47,898 nt of DNA, taken from the NCBI GenBank assembly GCA_016869765.1, contig VGES01000026.1, forward strand, positions 1 through 47,898, written 5' to 3'. The position numbers were made by a program, and so were the translations under genes. Source of the DNA: Alphaproteobacteria bacterium. Lineage in GTDB: Bacteria; Pseudomonadota; Alphaproteobacteria; SHVP01. Shown here piece after piece: positions 37,078 to 47,898 of the stretch. Each line of letters opens with the position of its first letter. Position 1 is the first letter of the stretch. The notes under the pieces are model-generated. The model had not been told where the DNA came from. It searched no databases and saw nothing but the letters and a program-made list of their open reading frames with translations.

Positions 37078-38487
37078 TCAGAGCGGGGCGAGACGGCCTT
37101 GCCATCCGCTGACGCGTTCGAAGGCCTGCGCGACCCAGAGGACCCGGAGGTCGCTGCCGATCGGACCGACAATCTGCAGCCCGATGGGGAGCCCGGCGGC
37201 CGACGTGCCGCAAGGCACGCTGATCGCCGGCTGGCCGGTGATATTGAACGGAAAGGTGAAGCACACGGTGGCCGAGAAACGGTCCTCGGGCTCGCGTACC
37301 GGTTCCCGTGATCCGTGCGCATAGGCCGTAACGGGATTGGTCGGTGTGACCAGGATGTCGTGGGTCTCGTGGAAGGTTGCCAATTCGGCACCCAGGCGCA
37401 GCCGGACTTCGAGCGCATGGCGAACGTCGTCAGCGGTGATCTTGGCCGATCGTGCGACCGCCTCCTGGAACGACGGGTCGAGTTTTGCTCGCTGCTCTGG
37501 CGACATCGGGCGCACCACGTTGAGCCACCCGGAGTCGAGCAAGACCCGGTAGAGCGGCATCGGGTCGGCAATGCGCGGCCCGGCCTCGACGACCTCAGCC
37601 CCGAGTTCGCGGAACGCTGCCATGGTGCTCATCACCGCTCGGGCGACCTCGGTCCTCGCCGTCGAGCCGCCCAATTCGGGCGCAAACGCCAGGCGAAGGC
37701 CTTTGAGGCTTGGATCGGCTGACGCGGCGAACGAGTGCGTTCGGTGGGCGCTGCTGGCATACGGATCACGCGGATCCGGTCTTGCAATGCTGTCGAGCAG
37801 CAGGGCGCAATCCTCGGCGCTGCGCGCCATCGGGCCCGTGCTCGACAGCGGCCAAAGGGCGCTCGGCGGCCAAGCGGGAACGCTGCCTTGCGTGGGCTTC
37901 ATGCCCACCACGCCGCAATAACTTGCCGGCTTCCGGCACGAGCCGCCTCCGTCGGTGCCGAGGGCGAGTGGTCCCATGCCGGCGGCGAGCGCGGCCCCTG
38001 CCCCGCCCGACGACCCGCCGGGGTTCATAGCGAGGTTCCAAGGATTGCTGGTGCGCCCGGTGAGGCCCGACTCGGTTACGCCTTTGTGCCCGAACTCGGG
38101 TGTCGTCGTTTTGCCGATGAGGACCGCCCCGCCTTCACGAAGGCGCGCGACAGCGGGGGAGTCGAAGTTCCACGGTCCCGCGTCGGGAGTGGCTCGCGAT
38201 CCGTGCCGCGTGGGCCAGCCACGAACGTGAATCAGATCCTTGACCGATACCGGTACGCCATCGAGGGGGCCAAGGGGCTGCCCCACCTGCCAGCGTCGCT
38301 CGGATTCCCGAGCGCTCGCCAGCGTCGCTTCGGCATCGCGATGGCAAAACGCATTGATCGCGCCATCGCAGCGCTCGATCCGTTCGATGATCGCTCTTGC
38401 GACATCGAGCGGAGAGAGTGTGCGGCGGCGAAACCCCTCGACCAGGGTCGTCGCCCGCATCTCGTGAAGTTCGCCATTCACTGGCAT
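37078..38487 (-). CDS. Amidase signature family hydrolase
   Basis: Hydrolyses an amide bond. At 469 residues it has the family Ser-cisSer-Lys triad: K83 (SVKDLI), S159 (GGSSGG) and nucleophile S183 in GTDGGGSCRKPA. The usual sequence around the nucleophile is GTDxGGSxRxPA, so C184 and K186 are small local changes but the triad is complete. The start ATG 38487 has AAGGGG 8 bases upstream and is preferred over an ATG 27 bases earlier. GatA, the tRNA amidotransferase subunit, is unlikely because no gatB or gatC is near. The substrate is not known. It is transcribed divergently from the amidohydrolase operon. Confidence 0.9.
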   Translation of the reverse strand: MPVNGELHEMRATTLVEGFRRRTLSPLDVARAIIERIERCDGAINAFCHRDAEATLASARESERRWQVGQPLGPLDGVPVSVKDLIHVRGWPTRHGSRATPDAGPWNFDSPAVARLREGGAVLIGKTTTPEFGHKGVTESGLTGRTSNPWNLAMNPGGSSGGAGAALAAGMGPLALGTDGGGSCRKPASYCGVVGMKPTQGSVPAWPPSALWPLSSTGPMARSAEDCALLLDSIARPDPRDPYASSAHRTHSFAASADPSLKGLRLAFAPELGGSTARTEVARAVMSTMAAFRELGAEVVEAGPRIADPMPLYRVLLDSGWLNVVRPMSPEQRAKLDPSFQEAVARSAKITADDVRHALEVRLRLGAELATFHETHDILVTPTNPVTAYAHGSREPVREPEDRFSATVCFTFPFNITGQPAISVPCGTSAAGLPIGLQIVGPIGSDLRVLWVAQAFERVSGWQGRLAPL

Positions 38488-38664: not shown

Positions 38665-40146
38665 ATGAGCAGGTCGACCGCTACGGAATCAGCGCGCATT
38701 CGCGCCAAACTCAAGCATCCGATCGTCGATGGCGACGGACACATCGTCGAAACCGGACCGGTGTTGCTCGACTATCTCAAACAGGTGGGCGGTTCGCGGC
38801 TCGCCAAGCGCTACGAAACGCTGATGACAAAGGATGGCGGCCCCTGGGGCTGGTACGCGATGAACGCCAAGGAGCGCCGCGACTGGCGCGCCATGCGCCC
38901 GCCGTTCTGGATCATGCCGGCACGCCACACGCTGGATCGTGCGACGGCGCTGCTCCCCAACCTGATGGCGGAGCGTATGGACGATTTCGGGATCGACTAC
39001 GCGATCATTTACACCTCGATCGGCCTGCCGTTCGTGAGTCTCCACGACGATGAACTGCGGCGCGGCGTCTGTCGGGCGCTCAACGTCATGTACGCCGATC
39101 TTTACCGTGGACACGAGTATCGCTTGACCCCGGCGGCATTGATTCCCATGCACACGCCGAAAGAAGCGATCGAGGAAACCGAATACGCCGTCAAGAAACT
39201 CGGACTCAAGGCCGTCATGATTGCGGCAACCGTCAAGCGACCGGTGAAGGCGCTCGCTCGCAAGCTCGGCAAGCATGCCCACCTCGCCTATTGGGTCGAT
39301 CCGCTGGCGATCGATTCGGATTACGACTACGACCCGGTTTGGGCGAAGTTCGTCGAACTCGGTGTTTCGCCGTCGGCCCACTCGAACTCGATGGGTTGGG
39401 GTGCTCGGGCGACCACGAGCAACTACATGTACAACCACATCGGGCACTTCGCCGCTTCGGGTGAAGCGTTTGCAAAAGCGCTGTTCTTCGGTGGCGTCAC
39501 CAAACGTTTCCCGATGCTCAACGTCGCTTTCCTCGAGGGTGGCGTGGCCTGGGCCTGCAATCTGTTCAGCGACATTATCGAGCACTGGGAAAAGCGTAGC
39601 GGCCGAAAGATGCTCAAGAACCTCGACCCGCGTCGGGTCGATGCCGCGGCCCTTGCGGACTACTACGCGCGCTATGGCGGCCTCATGACCAACCGACTCG
39701 GTGCTTCGCGCGGCGATGCGACCTATGGCGGCAGCGGCGCCATCGACCTCAAGACGATGGACGAGTTTGCCGCCGCCGATGTCCCGACCGAAGAGGCGCT
39801 GTACAACCGCTTCGTCCCCAACTTCTACTACGGCTGTGAGGCCGACGACCGTATGGTGGCGGTCGCTTTCAACGATCGCATCAACCACTTCGGTGCCAAG
39901 TTCAAGGCGATGTTCTCGTCCGACGCCGGCCATTGGGACGTCTCCAACATCGACCGGGTCGTAGCCCAGGCGCATGGCCTCCTCGAGGAGAACTTGATCA
40001 GCGATTCCGACTTCCGGGCCTTCATGTTCGGCAACATTGTCGAGCAACACGGGAAGATGAATCCGAGGTTCTTCCAAGGCACGGCCGTCGAAGCCGCAGC
40101 CGCCAAACACCTCAAGGTGAACGGGCGGCAGAAGCGCGCGGCATGA
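38665..40146 (+). CDS. Amidohydrolase family 2 metal-dependent hydrolase (TIM barrel)
   Basis: A 493-residue protein of the amidohydrolase-2 (ACMSD-like, PF04909 type) family. The N-terminal metal site is VDGDGHIVE (D24-x-H26, the usual D-x-H variant), a central histidine lies in PSAHSNSMGWG and a late aspartate in MFSSDAGHWDV. Family members hydrolyse or decarboxylate aromatic-derived acids, and some require zinc. The length exceeds the usual 300-400, because of extra helical segments at residues 60-110 and 320-370. The stop overlaps the next start in an ATGA, so it heads a coupled + operon. The ATG has GGGAA about 10 bases upstream. Confidence 0.9.
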   Translation: MSRSTATESARIRAKLKHPIVDGDGHIVETGPVLLDYLKQVGGSRLAKRYETLMTKDGGPWGWYAMNAKERRDWRAMRPPFWIMPARHTLDRATALLPNLMAERMDDFGIDYAIIYTSIGLPFVSLHDDELRRGVCRALNVMYADLYRGHEYRLTPAALIPMHTPKEAIEETEYAVKKLGLKAVMIAATVKRPVKALARKLGKHAHLAYWVDPLAIDSDYDYDPVWAKFVELGVSPSAHSNSMGWGARATTSNYMYNHIGHFAASGEAFAKALFFGGVTKRFPMLNVAFLEGGVAWACNLFSDIIEHWEKRSGRKMLKNLDPRRVDAAALADYYARYGGLMTNRLGASRGDATYGGSGAIDLKTMDEFAAADVPTEEALYNRFVPNFYYGCEADDRMVAVAFNDRINHFGAKFKAMFSSDAGHWDVSNIDRVVAQAHGLLEENLISDSDFRAFMFGNIVEQHGKMNPRFFQGTAVEAAAAKHLKVNGRQKRAA

Positions 40147-40334
40147 CTCCGCGACGTTCGATCGTCGGTGCGCTTACCCTCGGTGCCCTGCTGGCTCCCG
40201 CGGCTTGCTTGCCGACGTTCGAACTGCGAGACGACTACATGTTCAAAGAGTGGCTACAACCCTCGAAGGTCGTGGAGCCGATTCGTCGCAACGAGGATGG
40301 TGAACCGGTGCTACCCCCACCGCCTCGCCGATGA
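40143..40334 (+). CDS. Small exported or lipoprotein-like peptide (63 aa)
   Basis: A 63-residue reading frame between two enzymes, overlapped by ATGA at both ends. It opens with MTPRRSIVGALTLGALL, a short basic N-region and hydrophobic core, followed by APAAC with Cys22. The lipobox is imperfect (proline at -3), so cleavage by signal peptidase I at the A-P-A is equally possible. The mature 41 residues are acidic and proline-rich and end PPPPRR. The conserved position and double overlap make it a likely gene. I do not recognise a family. Confidence 0.7.
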   Translation: MTPRRSIVGALTLGALLAPAACLPTFELRDDYMFKEWLQPSKVVEPIRRNEDGEPVLPPPPRR

Positions 40335-40729
40335 CCCAACGGGCGTCCATTCGTCTGGCGCAGATCACCGTCCACGTCCGGGACTGCGATGAGGCGTGCC
40401 GTTGGTACGTGGACAACCTCGGTTGGATCAAGCGCCAGGACGAGACCTATGCCGACGGGACCCGATGGGTCACCGTCTCGGCGCCCGATCAGCCCGACGT
40501 GCGGCTCGTGCTCGACAAGCGGCCGCAGTTCGCCGGGGACAACGGGGTGGGCAAGCAACCGGTCCTGATCGTCGCCACCGACGACTGTGTCGCGGCCTAT
40601 GAGCAGCTGCTGGCACGGGGCGTCCGAATCAAGGATCCCCCGATTCACGAGGTTTGGGGAACGACCGCCCGGTTCTATGATCTCTACGGCAACGAGATCC
40701 ACATGTTTCAGCCATCGCACCGGACCTAG
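40331..40729 (+). CDS. Vicinal-oxygen-chelate (glyoxalase/bleomycin resistance) family protein
   Basis: A 132-residue single VOC module with the beta-alpha-beta-beta-beta pattern: ITVHVRDCDEACRWYVDNLGW, VTVSAPDQPDVRLVL, VLIVATDDCVAAYEQLL, and ARFYDLYGNEIHMFQP. The usual metal ligand positions hold Q11 (in place of H) and a histidine in the last strand (GNEIHMF, in place of E), so the metal site is altered. It could bind a metal differently or act as a binding protein. The ATG overlaps the previous stop (ATGA). Confidence 0.85.
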   Translation: MTQRASIRLAQITVHVRDCDEACRWYVDNLGWIKRQDETYADGTRWVTVSAPDQPDVRLVLDKRPQFAGDNGVGKQPVLIVATDDCVAAYEQLLARGVRIKDPPIHEVWGTTARFYDLYGNEIHMFQPSHRT

Positions 40730-40737
40730 GAGGCCCC

Positions 40738-41448
40738 ATGCACCGCTTCGAGTTCCCTGCCGACGTCGTCGAGCGCGTAGCCAAGCGCCGGGGCCGGCTT
40801 CACGCCTACGACTCGTTTGCACCCAAGGCGACGGCGCTCGTCGTCGTCGACATGCAGAACGCCTTCGTCGAAGAAGGCAGCGGTCACGCCCACGTCAAGG
40901 AAGCAGCCTCGACCTGCCCCAACATCAACCGTCTGGCGGCCGCAATGCGCCAGACTGGCGGCACCGTCGTCTGGATACTGAACACGTTCACGGCGGAATC
41001 GCGCCACAGTTGGTCGCACTTCCACGACGCGCTTTCTTCGCCGGCCTTGTTCAAGCGACGGAGCGAATCTATGGCCGAAGGCGCCCAAGGCCATCAGTTG
41101 TATCGGACCCTCGAGCCCAAGGACGGCGATCTGTTCATCAAGAAGACGCGCTACAGTGCCTTCATTCAGGGCTCATCGGTCCTCGAACGGGTGCTTCGGG
41201 AACGCGGGATCGACACGGTGCTCATCACCGGGACGGCGACCAATGTCTGCTGCGAGTCCACGGGTCGCGACGCCATGATGCTGAACTTCAAGACGACGCT
41301 GGTTTCTGACGCCTGTTCGGCCTCAAGCGACACCGATCATGCAGCAGCCCTCTGCGCCTTCATCCAGAACTTTGGCGACGTCCTCACGACCGATGAGGTG
41401 TTGGCTCGCCTCGCCCCGCGCGCGGTCGATCGGCGAGCCGCGGAATAG
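40738..41448 (+). CDS. Isochorismatase-like cysteine hydrolase
   Basis: A 236-residue protein of the isochorismatase family with all three catalytic residues: D38 (VVVDMQNAF), K136 (IKKTRYSAF) and C171 (TATNVCCEST). Members hydrolyse amide or ester bonds in nicotinamide, carbamates, ureidoacrylate and similar compounds. The GTATNVCCES sequence is close to that of the RutB-type and biuret-type groups, but the exact substrate is not set. A perfect AGGAGG lies 6 bases before ATG 40738, so this gene is well translated despite its place at the end of the operon. It converges on the double-VOC gene with a 3-base gap. Confidence 0.92.
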   Translation: MHRFEFPADVVERVAKRRGRLHAYDSFAPKATALVVVDMQNAFVEEGSGHAHVKEAASTCPNINRLAAAMRQTGGTVVWILNTFTAESRHSWSHFHDALSSPALFKRRSESMAEGAQGHQLYRTLEPKDGDLFIKKTRYSAFIQGSSVLERVLRERGIDTVLITGTATNVCCESTGRDAMMLNFKTTLVSDACSASSDTDHAAALCAFIQNFGDVLTTDEVLARLAPRAVDRRAAE

Positions 41449-41451
41449 GCT

Positions 41452-42471
41452 TCAGGCCCCGATCAGGGTCCAAAAGTAGCCGTCGGGCGCAACGAACGAA
41501 AACGCCCGCTCGCCGAACTCATCGTTCGCAATGGTCGTCACATTGCGGGCCCCGGCTTGCGTCACCAGCCGATGGGTCTGCTCGATGTTTTCGACGCGGT
41601 ACGTGTAGAGGCTCACCCCGAGGTGGCCGGGCCGCGACACGTCGCGAAGGTCCTCGTTCTGGCTGGTCGGATCGAGCCGGAAGGTCTTCAAACGGCCCGG
41701 CAGCCACCCTTTGGGGTCGTCCGAGGACTCGCGCGTGTCGCAGAAGTCGATCATATGCACCCGCTCGTTGTCGGTGATCGGGAACTGGATTCGCCCACCC
41801 TTGGTGTCGCGACCGACGCGGCTGCCGAGATCTTCGCGCCGCAATCCGAGCACGTTGCCGTAGAACGCGACCGCAGAATCGTCGACGCCGACGAAGAACA
41901 TGCCGCAATGGGTGAATTCGGTGCTGCGAAACTGACAGCTATTGTCGTACGTGCCATAGCTCGGTCGATCGTAGCCGAAGGACTTGAAGATCACCTGCCG
42001 AGATTCCGGCCGAAAAATCGTGAACTCGCGGTATCCGGTGATCGGACCCTTGAACGGTTCGGTGCGCGCTTCGTCGATCGGGACCAGTTGAAAAAACGGC
42101 GGTGTGAAGAAGAGGTCCTCGCCGCGGTCCTGCGCCAGTTCGCAGTGATTGAGCACTTCGCTGAAGTCGCGAGTTTTCGAGACGATCCACCGGCTGCCGC
42201 TGGCTCGAAGCGGCGCATAGCGGAGGCCCGCCCCGAGCGGCGTTTCCCACACCATTAAGCGAACGTAGCTGTGTTCGGCTTCGCCGTGCTGCAAACGAAC
42301 CGAGGTTAACGCCGAGTCGACTCCGTAGAGCGCCTTGGCGGACTGGGCCGACAAGTGGCCGCGTTCGACCTCGTGGTACCCGAATAGCGACCAGTAGCTG
42401 ATTTCACGGATGAGGTTACTGACTCCGACGCCGGCGTCGTAAATCCCGCCGAGCACTTGTGGGTTACTCAA
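41452..42471 (-). CDS. Double vicinal-oxygen-chelate domain protein
   Basis: A 339-residue protein with two VOC modules, about residues 5-130 and 165-338, the size and layout of type I extradiol dioxygenases. In the second module the metal ligands are H in FTHCGMFF and H in GHLGVSLYTY, but the third position, usually E, appears as T in GYFWTLIG. The first module has D in place of the first H. Loss of an iron ligand argues against normal dioxygenase activity, although the fold call stands. The start is TTG 42471 with GAGG 7 bases upstream, and it overlaps the preceding stop (TTGA). Confidence 0.8.
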   Translation of the reverse strand: MSNPQVLGGIYDAGVGVSNLIREISYWSLFGYHEVERGHLSAQSAKALYGVDSALTSVRLQHGEAEHSYVRLMVWETPLGAGLRYAPLRASGSRWIVSKTRDFSEVLNHCELAQDRGEDLFFTPPFFQLVPIDEARTEPFKGPITGYREFTIFRPESRQVIFKSFGYDRPSYGTYDNSCQFRSTEFTHCGMFFVGVDDSAVAFYGNVLGLRREDLGSRVGRDTKGGRIQFPITDNERVHMIDFCDTRESSDDPKGWLPGRLKTFRLDPTSQNEDLRDVSRPGHLGVSLYTYRVENIEQTHRLVTQAGARNVTTIANDEFGERAFSFVAPDGYFWTLIGA

Positions 42472-43133
42472 AGGGTGACCTCGCTGATCGTTCTGGAAGG
42501 CGCGAGCTTTGCCCGATCGACCGCGCTCAAAACGACGCGCTTGGTGTGTGGTGATTGCCAGGCTTTCACGAGAAGCGCGGCCACTTCTGCTCGACTGATG
42601 CTGCCAGAGGCTCGCGCATCGGTCGTCAGCACCCCGCTCCCAGTTGCCGGGTCGTCCGTCAGGTGTCCCGGGCGGATGATCGTGTAGGAGAGTCCACTCA
42701 CGCGCAGATACGCCTCGGCTTGGTTCTTGGCCAACAAGGCGTCACGAAGGAACACTTGGGCGCGTGGTTCGAGCGTCTCGAAGGTGTCGCCGCAGCCGAT
42801 CGCCGTCACCAAGAAAAATCGCTCGATGTTGGCGGCCTTCGCGGCGTCGACGATGTGCTTCACGCCGATGTAGTCGATCCGCGGACTGTCGCCGGGTCGG
42901 CCGCCGATCGTGCAAAAAACCGCGTCCCAGGGGCCGCCCGTTTGCAGGGCGCGTTCGACCGATGCCGCTTCGAACGCGTCGGCCAGCACGACCTGGGCGC
43001 CGAGCGCCTCGATTCGCGGCTGCTCGCTCGCCGTCCGAAACATCGCCGTGACGCGATTACCGTCCTGCCGCAGCCGACGAACGAGTTCGAAGCCCGTTCT
43101 CCGGCTGGCGCCGGCGACAAAAACACTGGCCAT
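42468..43133 (-). CDS. NAD(P)-binding atypical short-chain dehydrogenase/reductase
   Basis: A 221-residue Rossmann protein of the NmrA/SDR-a5 type. It has GASRRTGFELV (8-18) as dinucleotide loop, DAVFCTIGG at strand 4, FFLVTAIGCGD, and RVSGLSYTIIRPGHLTDD, a signature stretch of the family. It lacks the classical Y-x-x-x-K pair of true SDRs, so it is either an atypical reductase or a sensor of the dinucleotide ratio. It lies 30 bases downstream of the two-domain hydrolase-fold gene and overlaps the next gene. Confidence 0.85.
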   Translation of the reverse strand: MASVFVAGASRRTGFELVRRLRQDGNRVTAMFRTASEQPRIEALGAQVVLADAFEAASVERALQTGGPWDAVFCTIGGRPGDSPRIDYIGVKHIVDAAKAANIERFFLVTAIGCGDTFETLEPRAQVFLRDALLAKNQAEAYLRVSGLSYTIIRPGHLTDDPATGSGVLTTDARASGSISRAEVAALLVKAWQSPHTKRVVLSAVDRAKLAPSRTISEVTL

Positions 43134-43163: not shown

Positions 43164-44756
43164 TCACGAGCGCAAAAACTCAAACAGTGACGGGACTGTT
43201 TCACCACCTGTAACGCTCACGTCTGCTCGACCGCCGAAGACCTGGCCGCTCGAGCTGCCGAAAACGCCGATCATCGACGATGGTCGTTGCTGCGTTAACC
43301 GCCGCCATTCCTCGCGGCGCGCGTTGGGGGCTCCCAGGGACTTGAGTAGATCGACCGTCCTGCGATGGACATCCTGCGGATCGATGGTCGGTTCCTGGCG
43401 CGAAATGCCTCCGCGGTTGCGTTCGAACCAAGGATCGAACAGGCCCGCATCGCGGGCCATATGCCAGGCCTGCAACAGATAGCCGCCATACCAGTCGGGG
43501 GTCAGAGGAAGCGCCCCGAGGCGTTCCCATCGTTCGAGCGTCGCCGCCGCTACCGTTGGCGGGGCGACCATCGCCAGTTTTCGCACCGGCAATCCTCGAT
43601 CGATCAGGGCGGTGGCCGCGCCGGCGGCGCCTCCCAGGGCAATCACGTCGACCGGCTCGCCGGCCCACGCGCGTATAGCCTGGAGAAAAGAGTCCACGGT
43701 GCCCTTCGTCGACTCGCCGTGGCCCGGACGATCCGCCGCGAGAACTCGATGGACTCCAGCGAGACGCGCGAAAAGCGCCTGCCCTTGGGCGGACGATTGC
43801 CCGGCCTCGTGGATGATCACGACGGGGCGACCCTCGCCGTCCGCCGCTCTCGCGTAATACTGTTCCGCGCCGGCAGTCAGGAACGTCTGGCGCGCGCCGG
43901 TGGCGTGTGGTTCCGTTGCCGTCGGTACCGTCGGGGCGTCCCCAGCATGGCGGCGCAGGAAATCACGCGAACGTTCGACCAGTTCCCCGCGATCCCATCC
44001 GGTCCGGACGATGCTGATGTTGGGTCCGATCTCGTTCAAACGCTCGAGATGGGTGACCAGCGGGTCGGGTTGCATGGTCACGAGCAAGGTCGGGCAACGA
44101 ACGCGACCAATGGTCGTTGCCCCAGAAAAACGGAATGCCGCGCGGTAGCCGATCCAGTAGTCCTCGCCGGCGCGCAGCCAGTCGAGAAGGCGCTCGTGGA
44201 ACATCGGTGGGCCCGGCAGGTCGACATCGACGCGCAGCGACAAGCCGGCGCGATGCCAAGGGAAAAAGGCATATTCGTTGCGCATCCGGGCCCAAATCCA
44301 CACGAGATGGGATGCGTCCCATCGGGGCGCTACCGAAGGCGTGTAGTGCGTCGTGAAATCCAGGCGCTCTTCGTCGGAAAAGGCGACGTACCCGTCGGCG
44401 ACGAAGGCCGAGACGCGGTCCGGACGCCGCGCTGCGATCGCCGCCGCGATGCAGCTCCCGGTGTGGTTGCCGAACAGGGCGAAGCGGCCAACGCCAAGCT
44501 GATCAAGAGCAGCGATCATCGCGTCCGCGTAGTCGTCGATCGCGGGATCCGCTCGCCCCAGCGGGTCGGAATGGCCATAGCCTGCCGTGTCGAATGCCAG
44601 GCACGTGAAGTCTTCGGCCAGGGGCGACATCGTCGACACGAGGTCGGCCGACGACAACGGCGACTGATGGAGCATTACCAAGGCCGGACCGCGGCCGGCC
44701 CGGCGGTAATGCATCTGGCGCGAACCTATCGAAACGAAGTGGCGAGTGATCGGCAC
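43164..44756 (-). CDS. Two-domain alpha/beta-hydrolase-fold protein lacking catalytic residues
   Basis: A 530-residue protein made of two alpha/beta-hydrolase-fold halves, about residues 1-270 and 285-530. Each has the beta-strand 5 elbow, but the usual Ser of G-x-S-x-G is replaced: G96-N97-H98-T99-G100 in the first and G375-G376-A377-A378-G379 in the second. The late catalytic His is also missing in both: G253-W254 and G518-E519 lie where G-H is expected. GTG 44756 is the chosen start, on the grounds that translation from it begins with the family-like PITRHFVSIGSRQMHYRRAGRG. The ORF continues upstream into a divergent promoter region. No frame break is visible. Confidence 0.82.
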   Translation of the reverse strand: MPITRHFVSIGSRQMHYRRAGRGPALVMLHQSPLSSADLVSTMSPLAEDFTCLAFDTAGYGHSDPLGRADPAIDDYADAMIAALDQLGVGRFALFGNHTGSCIAAAIAARRPDRVSAFVADGYVAFSDEERLDFTTHYTPSVAPRWDASHLVWIWARMRNEYAFFPWHRAGLSLRVDVDLPGPPMFHERLLDWLRAGEDYWIGYRAAFRFSGATTIGRVRCPTLLVTMQPDPLVTHLERLNEIGPNISIVRTGWDRGELVERSRDFLRRHAGDAPTVPTATEPHATGARQTFLTAGAEQYYARAADGEGRPVVIIHEAGQSSAQGQALFARLAGVHRVLAADRPGHGESTKGTVDSFLQAIRAWAGEPVDVIALGGAAGAATALIDRGLPVRKLAMVAPPTVAAATLERWERLGALPLTPDWYGGYLLQAWHMARDAGLFDPWFERNRGGISRQEPTIDPQDVHRRTVDLLKSLGAPNARREEWRRLTQQRPSSMIGVFGSSSGQVFGGRADVSVTGGETVPSLFEFLRS

Positions 44757-44878: not shown

Positions 44879-45553
44879 ATGCGACACAACACCATCCGCT
44901 ACAAAATCCTCTATCTCGGGCCGTCCGGGGAACGCGGTCGCGAGTGGTGCACCGTGACATCGCACGAGAGCGGCGATCGCACGCTACGCGCCCTATGCGA
45001 GATGGACGACACCGAACTGCTGCGCGATGTGACGTACTCCGTCGATCGCTCGTGGCACCCGAAGGATTGTTTCATTCGTGTGCGTCTTCAGGAACGCTTC
45101 GTCGGTTCGGGTTGGTTTCGTTTTGCCGGAACGTTGGCCGAATGCGAGACCCTCACTGCCGCGGAGGGTCGGCTTCATCAGGCGATCGCGCTCGAAGCTC
45201 CCCCGGTTTCCTTCATCAACCATGCCGTCGCGTGTGATGTCTGGCATTGGGCCGGAATCGACCTCGATCCCGGTCGGCACCAAGTTTGTCGGCCCGTTCC
45301 CGCCTGTTCGCCCCTCCCCAACGGGGCCTCCGGCCCGACCCTGTCGTTGTGGCCGCTGCCCGTCGTATTTCGCGGTCGCGAACGAATCACGACCCGTGCC
45401 GGAGTTTTCGACTGTTTGCGGGCGACGTACCTCACGGCGGGCGGAGAGCCGTCCCTCGATACGTGGTGTACGGACGATCCGGATCGCATCATGGTCAAGA
45501 TGGAGTGGCCGCCCTTCCGCTCCACCTTCGAGTTGGTCGAGTTGTCTCGGTAG
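44879..45553 (+). CDS. Unknown conserved family protein, paralogue 1
   Basis: First of three tandem relatives, 224 residues. Shared features are a GERGRE segment at about residues 18-23, an LCEMDD motif near 38-43, LRDVTYSVDRSW (47-58), ACDVWHWAG near 117-125 and CSPLPNGASGP near 145-155, then a beta-rich C-terminal part with TTRAGVFDC and a late VKMEWPP. There is no signal peptide. The C-terminal pattern (sugar-like PAGxF, then a W-C-T/D segment) recalls the DUF3108-type beta-barrel fold, but I only infer this. ATG 44879 lacks a clear ribosome site; TATGCT lies 12 bases before it. Confidence 0.75.
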   Translation: MRHNTIRYKILYLGPSGERGREWCTVTSHESGDRTLRALCEMDDTELLRDVTYSVDRSWHPKDCFIRVRLQERFVGSGWFRFAGTLAECETLTAAEGRLHQAIALEAPPVSFINHAVACDVWHWAGIDLDPGRHQVCRPVPACSPLPNGASGPTLSLWPLPVVFRGRERITTRAGVFDCLRATYLTAGGEPSLDTWCTDDPDRIMVKMEWPPFRSTFELVELSR

Positions 45554-45560
45554 GTCTGCC

Positions 45561-46241
45561 ATGCAACATCGTTCGTATCGCTACAAGATCAACTATGTCG
45601 GCCCGAAGGGTGAGCGTGGTCGGGAGCGCTGCGTCGTGACGGTCCACGGCGACGGCGATCGCACGATCCGCGCCCTGTGCGAGATGGACGACTCCCAGGT
45701 CCTGCGCGACGTCACCTACACCGTGGATCGCCACTGGCGTCCCCGGGATGCCTTCGTGCGACTGAGCGTCGCGGATCGGTTCATGGGATCGAGCTGGTTC
45801 CGTTTCGACGGCAATCGGGCGGAGTGCGAAGCCTTTACCGCGGCCGAGGGCCGACTGTCGCAACGCCTGGTTCTCGAGCGAGCGCCTGCGTCGTTCGTCA
45901 CGCACCCCGTCGCCTGTGACGTCTGGCACTTCGCTGGGATCGATCGAACGCTGGGCGACCAGATTCAGGAATCCTTGAGCGCCAGTTGTTCCCCGCTGCC
46001 CAACGGAGCTTCTGGTCCGATGCTCGGAATCTCGCGCCACCGCTTCCGCTACCGTGGGCGGCAGCGGACTCGATCACCGGCCGGGACGTTCGACACCGAG
46101 CACGCGGAGTTCGTCGGGCGCGACGGCGTCGTGCGACTCAAGGCGTGGTGCACAATCCACGACCGCATTCTGGTGCGCATGGAGTTCGAACCGCTGCAAT
46201 CGGTCTACGAACTCGTCGAGCTCGAGGGATCTGCCGGCTAG
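45561..46241 (+). CDS. Unknown conserved family protein, paralogue 2
   Basis: Second relative, 226 residues, 7 bases after paralogue 1. By hand alignment about three quarters of its first 80 residues match paralogue 3. The shared blocks are GERGRE, HGDGDRT, LCEMDDSQVLRDVTYTVDR, ACDVWH, CSPLPNGASGP and SPAGTF. A TAGG lies 7 bases before the ATG. The stop codon TAG overlaps the NUDIX stop on the other strand in a CTAG palindrome at 46238-46241. Function unknown. Confidence 0.78.
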   Translation: MQHRSYRYKINYVGPKGERGRERCVVTVHGDGDRTIRALCEMDDSQVLRDVTYTVDRHWRPRDAFVRLSVADRFMGSSWFRFDGNRAECEAFTAAEGRLSQRLVLERAPASFVTHPVACDVWHFAGIDRTLGDQIQESLSASCSPLPNGASGPMLGISRHRFRYRGRQRTRSPAGTFDTEHAEFVGRDGVVRLKAWCTIHDRILVRMEFEPLQSVYELVELEGSAG

Positions 46242-46819
46242 CACTGCCGTCCGCGCAGGCGCTCTTTCAACCAGAGAGCGGCCAAAACCGTCTTGGAGTC
46301 GCGTAGGCGCCCCTCCTCCATATCCTTCCACAGGTCCCAAGGCGCCACTTCGAAGACCTCGATGTCTTCGCCTTCGTCGGTGCCCCCGCCCCGCGTCTGG
46401 CGGCCCTGGTCACTGACCTCGGCCAGAAAGAAGTGCATCTGCTCCGAGCAACTTCCCGGTGCGACGTAATAGACCCCAATACGATGCAACTCGTCGACCG
46501 TGAATCCGAGTTCCTCGAGGATCTCGCGTCGAACGGCGTGTTCGGGCGTCTCGCCGGCATGAACGCCCCCGGCCGCGATTTCCACCATCCAGCCCGGCCC
46601 CTGGTCATGGGTGGCGATCCGGAACTGGCGCGTAAGGACGACCCGGCCAGAGGAGCGGTTGAGAACGATAGCGGCGACGGCCGTACCGGTATCCCACACG
46701 AGATGCGTTAGTTCCGGGCTCATCTCGCCGTTCAGTTTCTCGAATCGATAGGTTGCGCTGCGCAGCCGGTAGTGCCCGTCGTAGAGCAAACGTCTTGCCG
46801 AGATTTCGACTTTCTTCAT
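46238..46819 (-). CDS. NUDIX hydrolase, probable ADP-ribose or nucleotide-sugar pyrophosphatase
   Basis: A 193-residue protein with a complete Nudix box at residues 84-106: G84, E90, R98, E99, E102, E103, G105 (G-x5-E-x7-R-E-U-x-E-E-x-G-U). The upstream VVLTRQFRIAT and the ending ALWLKERL resemble the NudF/NudK subgroup that cleaves ADP-ribose or GDP-mannose. The metal-binding glutamates are all present, so it is probably active. It lies between paralogues 2 and 3 but on the opposite strand. ATG at 46819. Confidence 0.9.
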   Translation of the reverse strand: MKKVEISARRLLYDGHYRLRSATYRFEKLNGEMSPELTHLVWDTGTAVAAIVLNRSSGRVVLTRQFRIATHDQGPGWMVEIAAGGVHAGETPEHAVRREILEELGFTVDELHRIGVYYVAPGSCSEQMHFFLAEVSDQGRQTRGGGTDEGEDIEVFEVAPWDLWKDMEEGRLRDSKTVLAALWLKERLRGRQC

Positions 46820-46854
46820 AGTGTGTCCGCCAACGAGCCAGGGGGGCGCGCACG

Positions 46855-47547
46855 ATGCAGCATCGCGGGTATCGCGGCAAGATTCGTTATCAAGGGGACG
46901 CTCCAGTTGGCGAGCGCGGCCGCGAGTGGTTCACGGTAACGGTTCACGGCGACGGTACCCGGACGCTGCGATCGATGTGCGAAATGGATGACTCGCAGAT
47001 CCTCCGCGACGTGACCTACACCATGGATCGTGACTGGCGGCCACTGGATTCGTTCGTTCGAATCTCGGTCAAGGACAGGTTCTTCGGCGGCGCGTGGTTC
47101 CGTTTCGGCGCGCGCGAGGTAGAGTGCGAGGGGTTCACCGCCGGTGAAGGCCGGTTTTCGCAGCGAGTCGCGGTCGACGATTGGCCACGGTCGTTTGGCC
47201 CTCACCCCGTAGTGTGCGACATCTGGCATCTGGGGGCGTGGAACTGGAAAGGCCCCAAGGCCCAGGAATGGCCGGCGATCATGTCCTCGCCGCTGCCCAA
47301 CGGTGGCTCCGGGCCGATGATCGGTCGTTCGATGATTCGAGCCGAGTACCAAGGCGAGGAGACCGTGACGGTCCCGGCGGGAACGTTCCGCTGCAAACAC
47401 TTCGTGTTTCCACTGCGCGAGTCTGGTCATCCCCCCGAACACGTCTGGTACACCGGTCCCGATCTGCTGTTCGTGAAGATTCGCTGGGATTTGCTCAAGA
47501 CAACGTACGAACTGACCGAGATCTCGGGGGACGTCGGTCGCGAATAG
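46855..47547 (+). CDS. Unknown conserved family protein, paralogue 3
   Basis: Third relative, 230 residues. It has MQHRGYRGKIRYQG at the N-terminus, GERGRE, LRSMCEMDDSQILRDVTYT, VVCDIWHLGA, SSPLPNGGSGP and TVPAGTFRC. The cysteine before SPLP of the other two is absent. GGGGGG lies about 8 bases before ATG 46855. The divergent spacing to the NUDIX start is 35 bases, and its stop is one base from the GNAT stop. Function unknown; it is the most diverged of the three. Confidence 0.78.
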   Translation: MQHRGYRGKIRYQGDAPVGERGREWFTVTVHGDGTRTLRSMCEMDDSQILRDVTYTMDRDWRPLDSFVRISVKDRFFGGAWFRFGAREVECEGFTAGEGRFSQRVAVDDWPRSFGPHPVVCDIWHLGAWNWKGPKAQEWPAIMSSPLPNGGSGPMIGRSMIRAEYQGEETVTVPAGTFRCKHFVFPLRESGHPPEHVWYTGPDLLFVKIRWDLLKTTYELTEISGDVGRE

Positions 47548-47548
47548 G

Positions 47549-47898
47549 TCAGCTCTCCGCGAACGCCGCGTCGTATTGAACGGTCCCGCTCGGCCGTTCT
47601 GGACCGAATGGAAGCGCGAGAAAGAACTTCGCCGGCACGCTTGGATATTCCAGGCCGACCTTCGGCGCGAAGCCGAAACGTCCATAGAACGCCGGTTCGC
47701 CAACCAGCACGCAGCCGCGTGCGCCCCGCTGGAGCAACATGGCCAGCGCCCTCTCCATGAGGCGCGTGCCGATCCCCTGTCGCTGGCGCGCCGGCAGGAC
47801 CGAAATCGGACCGAGTCCGAACCATCCCGACGCTCCGCTCGAAATCGAAACCGGCGAGACGGCGACGTGACCGACGACATGCCCGTCGTCCACGACCA
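47549..47898 (-). CDS. GNAT family N-acetyltransferase, partial
   Basis: The reading frame runs into the window edge, so the N-terminus is missing. About 116 residues remain. The acetyl-CoA-binding motif A is visible as LPARQRQGIGTRLMERAL, with the pattern Q/R-x-x-G-x-G/A, preceded by strand GPISV and followed by a strand with ARGCVLVGEPAFYGRFGF, the typical GNAT motif with an F-Y-x-x-x-G-F segment. The substrate is unknown. It converges on paralogue 3. Confidence 0.85.
   Translation of the reverse strand, partial: VVDDGHVVGHVAVSPVSISSGASGWFGLGPISVLPARQRQGIGTRLMERALAMLLQRGARGCVLVGEPAFYGRFGFAPKVGLEYPSVPAKFFLALPFGPERPSGTVQYDAAFAES

Follow-up and report, generated by a model that had tools for sequence, protein, structure and literature searches.

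EipB is built of 14 antiparallel strands that form a spiral cylinder, and its gene adjoins bamA and lpx genes (PMC10787603). The LolA-fold proteins have a common hydrophobic ligand pocket and a variable lid loop; hydrophobic ligand binding is their unifying feature, most of them are without enzyme activity, and VioE is a cytosolic enzyme with this fold (PMC6363788). Our search of the literature returned nothing on the function of DUF3108, of DUF6134 or of pJE1. To our knowledge, no function has been proven for DUF1089.

Here we analyze a 47,898-nt stretch of alphaproteobacterial DNA (the window), which stops where its contig stops and which carries three genes on the + strand, P1 (44879-45553), P2 (45561-46241), and P3 (46855-47547), with products of 224, 226, and 230 aa. 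Full-length BLASTP comparison gives 55% identity for P1-P2 (E 7e-90), 52% for P2-P3 (E 1e-82), and 45% for P1-P3 (E 3e-66), a sequence similarity that is far above chance and marks the three as paralogues. P1 and P2 are spaced by 7 bp, and between P2 and P3 lies a - strand gene (46238-46819) for a NUDIX hydrolase of the YffH/AdpP-type nucleoside diphosphatases (Pfam NUDIX, 3e-18; TIGR00052, 115 bits, above cut-off), which is convergent with P2, overlapping it by 4 bp, and divergent from P3 across a 35-bp gap. An earlier note, made from the letters of this DNA, had described three paralogues of 224-230 aa with a NUDIX gene on the opposite strand between copies 2 and 3, and both descriptions hold. 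By eye, a frame at 47549-47893 (- strand), cut by the contig end, resembles a GNAT-type acetyltransferase.

The blocks GERGRE, CEMDD, CD(V/I)WH, and SPLPNG(A/G)SGP, which the note had listed as shared, occur in all three proteins; a fifth, LRDVTYT, reads LRDVTYS in P1. Conservation among the copies is high along residues 1-104, low at 127-142, high again at the SPLPNG block, and moderate beyond: identity between pairs is 58-71% over residues 1-80, 7-27% over 127-142, 56-75% over the SPLPNG block (143-158), and 31-42% over 159-226. The proposed constant core with a diverging middle is thereby refined to an identity minimum at 127-142 followed by a recovery at the SPLPNG block.

None of the three window proteins scores above cut-off against a Pfam or NCBIfam family. 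The whole-protein scores against DUF3108 (PF11306) are 22.1 bits for P1 and 17.7 bits for P3, with no match for P2, all under the Pfam gathering cut-off of 26 bits, which is reached only by the copy on contig C86 of the same genome (26.1 bits). DUF3108 is matched weakly by 18 of 34 members, and the match is restricted to profile positions of about 141-199 out of 209. Over 54 columns, hhalign of the family against DUF3108 gives a P of 2.9e-6 (reversed control, 0.18). The member on plasmid pJE1 is named "DUF3108 domain-containing protein" by NCBI. No solved relative was found by sequence at a significant level; partial, weak matches to DUF1348 and to PpsC polyketide-synthase chains (E 0.01-0.03) drew no support from fold searches and were set aside.

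To predict the fold, we gave the 34-member alignment to AlphaFold2, which modelled P2 with a pLDDT of 94.1 and P3 with one of 95.3. Each model contains 14 strands, strands 8 and 9 being separated by a helix (117-126 in P2 numbering), and the predicted fold of the family to which P1, P2, and P3 belong is a 14-strand spiral beta-barrel. Among solved structures, the models come closest to EipB, 6ntr (Foldseek E 1.8e-6; Z 16.0 and 16.4 over 199-200 residues, rmsd 3.2-3.3 Å). The DUF3108 structures 3fzx and 4fvs share the fold (Z 9.7-10.9 over 158-163 residues, rmsd 3.8-4.2), and for the LolA/VioE superfamily, which is marked by a curved antiparallel beta-sheet (beta-clam) and a helical plug, the scores against VioE (Z 8.4-9.3) and LolA (Z about 6.5-8.6) are both near the background level quoted for the tool. 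The earlier view of an unrecognised family therefore stands insofar as no named family covers the proteins whole, and gives way at the C-terminal hairpin, which matches DUF3108, and at the predicted fold, an EipB/DUF1089/DUF3108-like spiral barrel.

A hydrophobic N-terminal segment is absent in 67 of 68 members and present in 14 of 17 solute-binding control proteins; because it is absent, the family members are most likely cytosolic. Six residues are invariant in the 68 sequences (E22, R49, H115, G149, G175, and L218). At position 120, all 63 sequences of the main clade and one of the five divergent sequences have D, and most of the others have E; within the main clade, R37, E41, D63, R67, E90, R98, and Q101 hardly vary. 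Ionisable residues of this kind would be required by an active site or by a binding site specific for a polar ligand or group. We infer that the invariant polar residues lie in the barrel cavity; they could instead be structural.

Upstream of P1, the window holds a double alpha/beta hydrolase of 516 aa (43164-44714, - strand), homologous to a 573-aa hydrolase of the pJE1 cluster; its nearest solved relatives are hydrolases of ring-cleavage products, namely alpha-(N-acetylaminomethylene)succinate hydrolase and meta-cleavage-product hydrolases. Beyond it are an NAD(P)-binding NmrA-like protein (42468-43133, - strand), a two-domain VOC protein of the glyoxalase/extradiol-dioxygenase superfamily (41452-42471, - strand), an isochorismatase-fold amidohydrolase (40738-41448, + strand) nearest to RutB, the ureidoacrylate amidohydrolase, although under the equivalog cut-off, a second VOC protein (40331-40729, + strand), an amidohydrolase_2 protein (38665-40146, + strand) weakly related to 2,3-dihydroxybenzoate decarboxylase, and an amidase (37078-38487, - strand; NF004815, above cut-off).

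Part of this layout is shared with relatives. The window shares the order VOC (40331-40729), isochorismatase, NmrA-like, P2, NUDIX, P3 with three genomes from another genus of its bacterial family, whose P2 and P3 are 63-72% identical to those of the window (63-65% for P2), so that the NmrA-like gene is a conserved neighbour of P2 and the NUDIX gene of P3; a third lineage (L049, L050) retains isochorismatase, NUDIX, and P3. In the family tree, whose bootstrap is not fully settled, P3 falls with strong support within an 11-member clade separate from P1 and P2, and P1 groups with copies elsewhere in the same genome, its sisters being those on contigs C86 and C68. On these comparisons the P2-NUDIX-P3 arrangement is old, because its order is conserved in another genus and because P3 belongs to a different clade from P1 and P2. 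The genes for P1, the double alpha/beta hydrolase, and the two-domain VOC protein are missing from the relatives' loci and are probably later additions. The earlier note had called the three genes tandem paralogues with the NUDIX gene inserted; on the tree we reject a recent tandem triplication, and on the conserved gene order we reject the insertion.

The three window copies are a small part of the complement of this genome (3.99 Mb, 164 contigs, 99.6% complete), in which we found 20 matching places, or about 20 copies, with open frames. All nine other genomes of the same bacterial family have at least one copy (range, 1-18), and most genomes of that family carry more than one, as the note had suggested counting. 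Outside it, full-length members are rare: about 6 of the 380 other class genomes have them, as do 3 of about 400 genomes of the phylum. They are also found on eight sphingomonad plasmid records; the other matches in class and phylum genomes are short and C-terminal and are probably DUF3108 proper. No relatives were found in the viral contigs searched, nor any viral fold matches at E 1e-3 or better. One genome of the bacterial family has four members in a row followed by an expanded methyltransferase (L048:4182-7090, the same as L098), and a divergent subfamily of the YERF type (L075:4702-6101, L091, L092, L097) often stands beside glutathione-S-transferase-like and MaoC/FAS1-dehydratase-like genes.

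Members occur in clusters for the uptake and degradation of small molecules. At the window locus, the neighbours are the amidase, the decarboxylase-like amidohydrolase, the two VOC proteins, the RutB-like amidohydrolase, the NmrA-like protein, and the double alpha/beta hydrolase. Of the 87 SBP_bac_5 transporter genes in the window genome, 9 have a copy no more than 3 kb away, where 2.3 would be expected (binomial P 5e-4, an approximate and optimistic value, as these genes are clustered). The number of these peptide/opine-type solute-binding protein genes, about 87 in 4 Mb, is itself an observation on this genome, as is the presence of about 60 paralogues of one ~390-aa SAM-dependent methyltransferase family (query, L076:11775-12926). 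The methyltransferases are mostly 38-57% identical, have their own N-terminal region, and are often in tandem (e.g., C113, C11:64-67 kb, and C25:12-16 kb), an expansion larger than that of the barrel family. Co-location of the two families was considered and is not convincing (three within about 3 kb vs. about 1.7 expected).

On two plasmids, pJE1 and pTomTYG65b, the gene for a member comes immediately after VOC, alpha/beta hydrolase, and membrane-protein genes and is part of a block that further holds a cupin, an FAD oxidase, an MFS protein, a second hydrolase, a TonB receptor, two CE4 hydrolases, an isochorismatase, HMG-CoA lyase, a CoA-transferase, and LeuCD. Some of the block also adjoins members in genomes from other families of the class and from the phylum (L225, L227, L233), and the members at these loci share one clade with the plasmid members. 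On sphingomonad plasmids (L220-L224) and, partly, in other groups (L225, L227, and L233), we note a catabolic cluster with two CE4 hydrolases, isochorismatase, LeuCD, an isocitrate-lyase-like gene, HMG-CoA lyase, CoA-transferase, and a TonB receptor. As judged from gene content, this set would suit the opening of a cyclic imide and the cleavage of an alkylated maleate or malate; our literature search returned nothing linking the CE4 pair to imide opening. In the window genome, the surroundings of the copies show no significant enrichment in homologues of the pJE1 cluster genes (10 of 155 vs. 10 of 273 control genes, P 0.14).

We tentatively favor, at slightly less than an even chance, a reading in which the members are cytosolic proteins that handle small molecules, each for a single degradative pathway and probably as enzymes that need no cofactor. 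Its computed basis is the predicted fold, the lack of a signal peptide, the expansion in paralogues, the conserved gene order with catabolic neighbours, and the invariant polar residues. We propose that a small and probably fairly hydrophobic intermediate of the pathway would enter the barrel, where the invariant Glu/Arg/His/Asp set may act on it without a cofactor, as VioE does; by analogy with the lid loop of the LolA fold, the variable stretch 127-142 may form the pocket entrance and fit each paralogue to one degradative pathway. For the window copies, the putative partners would be the amidase, the decarboxylase-like amidohydrolase, the VOC proteins, the RutB-like amidohydrolase, and the hydrolase of ring-cleavage-product type. 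The main rival, almost as likely, is that the members are non-catalytic cytosolic carriers: much like LolA-fold proteins in the periplasm, they would bind a pathway intermediate that is hydrophobic or reactive, keep hold of it, and pass it to neighbouring enzymes. Hydrophobic ligand binding unifies the LolA-fold proteins, mostly non-enzymes (PMC6363788), and the high divergence of 127-142 and the transporter genes close by are likewise in keeping with a carrier; on the other hand, the invariant E22, R49, and H115, together with the almost always acidic residue 120 in the 68 sequences, exceed what a generic hydrophobic pocket needs. A fuller version of the enzymatic reading, which we regard as doubtful, holds that the family is a novel cofactor-free enzyme on an EipB-like spiral barrel, with a Glu/Arg/His/Asp center and one pathway step per copy, and that one widespread branch works in a pathway whose last steps open a cyclic imide and cleave an alkyl-maleate/malate (CE4 pair, isochorismatase, LeuCD, and isocitrate-lyase-like genes). 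As a guess, the substrates of that branch might possibly be tetrapyrrole-derived or similar.

The remaining explanations are much less probable. That the members are EipB-like envelope factors working on lipids or outer-membrane proteins would follow most directly from EipB being the closest solved fold, yet it is very unlikely: the signal peptide is absent, the profile-profile relation to EipB has a probability of about 1%, a separate EipB gene, the only one in this genome, lies on contig C12, and the neighbours are catabolic whereas eipB stands by bamA and lpx genes. Equally improbable is a role as ligand sensors or regulators of their clusters; a single copy per cluster would fit a specific sensor, but one barrel takes up the whole chain, with no DNA-binding or signalling domain. 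The least probable is that the copies at the window locus arose by neutral amplification on the spot and do not differ in function. Transporter and methyltransferase families are amplified in this genome as well; against this stand P2 and P3 orthologues that keep 63-72% identity and gene order in other genera, the retention of P3 even in a 2.2-Mb genome, and the open frames of the copies.

Four known systems come closest to the family, and it differs from each of them. With EipB (DUF1849, PF08904), both models share the 14-strand spiral barrel, whereas EipB is periplasmic, single copy, and encoded next to bamA/lpx genes, and the members are without a signal peptide and have catabolic neighbours; hhalign gives a probability of 1.1-1.2%, with no sequence profile similarity. 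DUF1089 (Glycolipid_bind, PF06475; PDB 2h1t, PA1994) resembles the family in fold (Z 15.5 over 167-168 residues) but is shorter, at about 185 aa, and is without sequence relation to it: there is no Pfam match to PF06475, and the hhalign probability is 0.2-0.6%, again with no profile similarity. DUF3108 (PF11306; 3fzx, 4fvs) shares the C-terminal hairpin G-x-E-x-V-T-V-x-A-G-T-F over ~55 residues, whereas the N-terminal 150 residues of the family have no match in it and the window copies score under the Pfam cut-off. VioE of violacein biosynthesis (2zf3/2zf4), itself a protein of LolA-like fold, is cytosolic, as the members most likely are, and works in small-molecule metabolism; its Z of about 9 is near the level of common arrangements; it differs in being smaller and biosynthetic, not degradative, and no sequence similarity to the family was found. 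On present evidence the family is a variant of a known fold class and not a categorically new system. If the preferred reading is true, proteins now labelled "hypothetical" or "DUF3108 domain-containing", including those of cultured sphingomonads, would gain a testable function, and the catabolic clusters of uncultured alphaproteobacteria would become easier to read; a fold so far familiar chiefly in periplasmic carriers and proteins of the envelope would then have been adopted in the cytosol, where its copies would form a set of tools for degrading small molecules.
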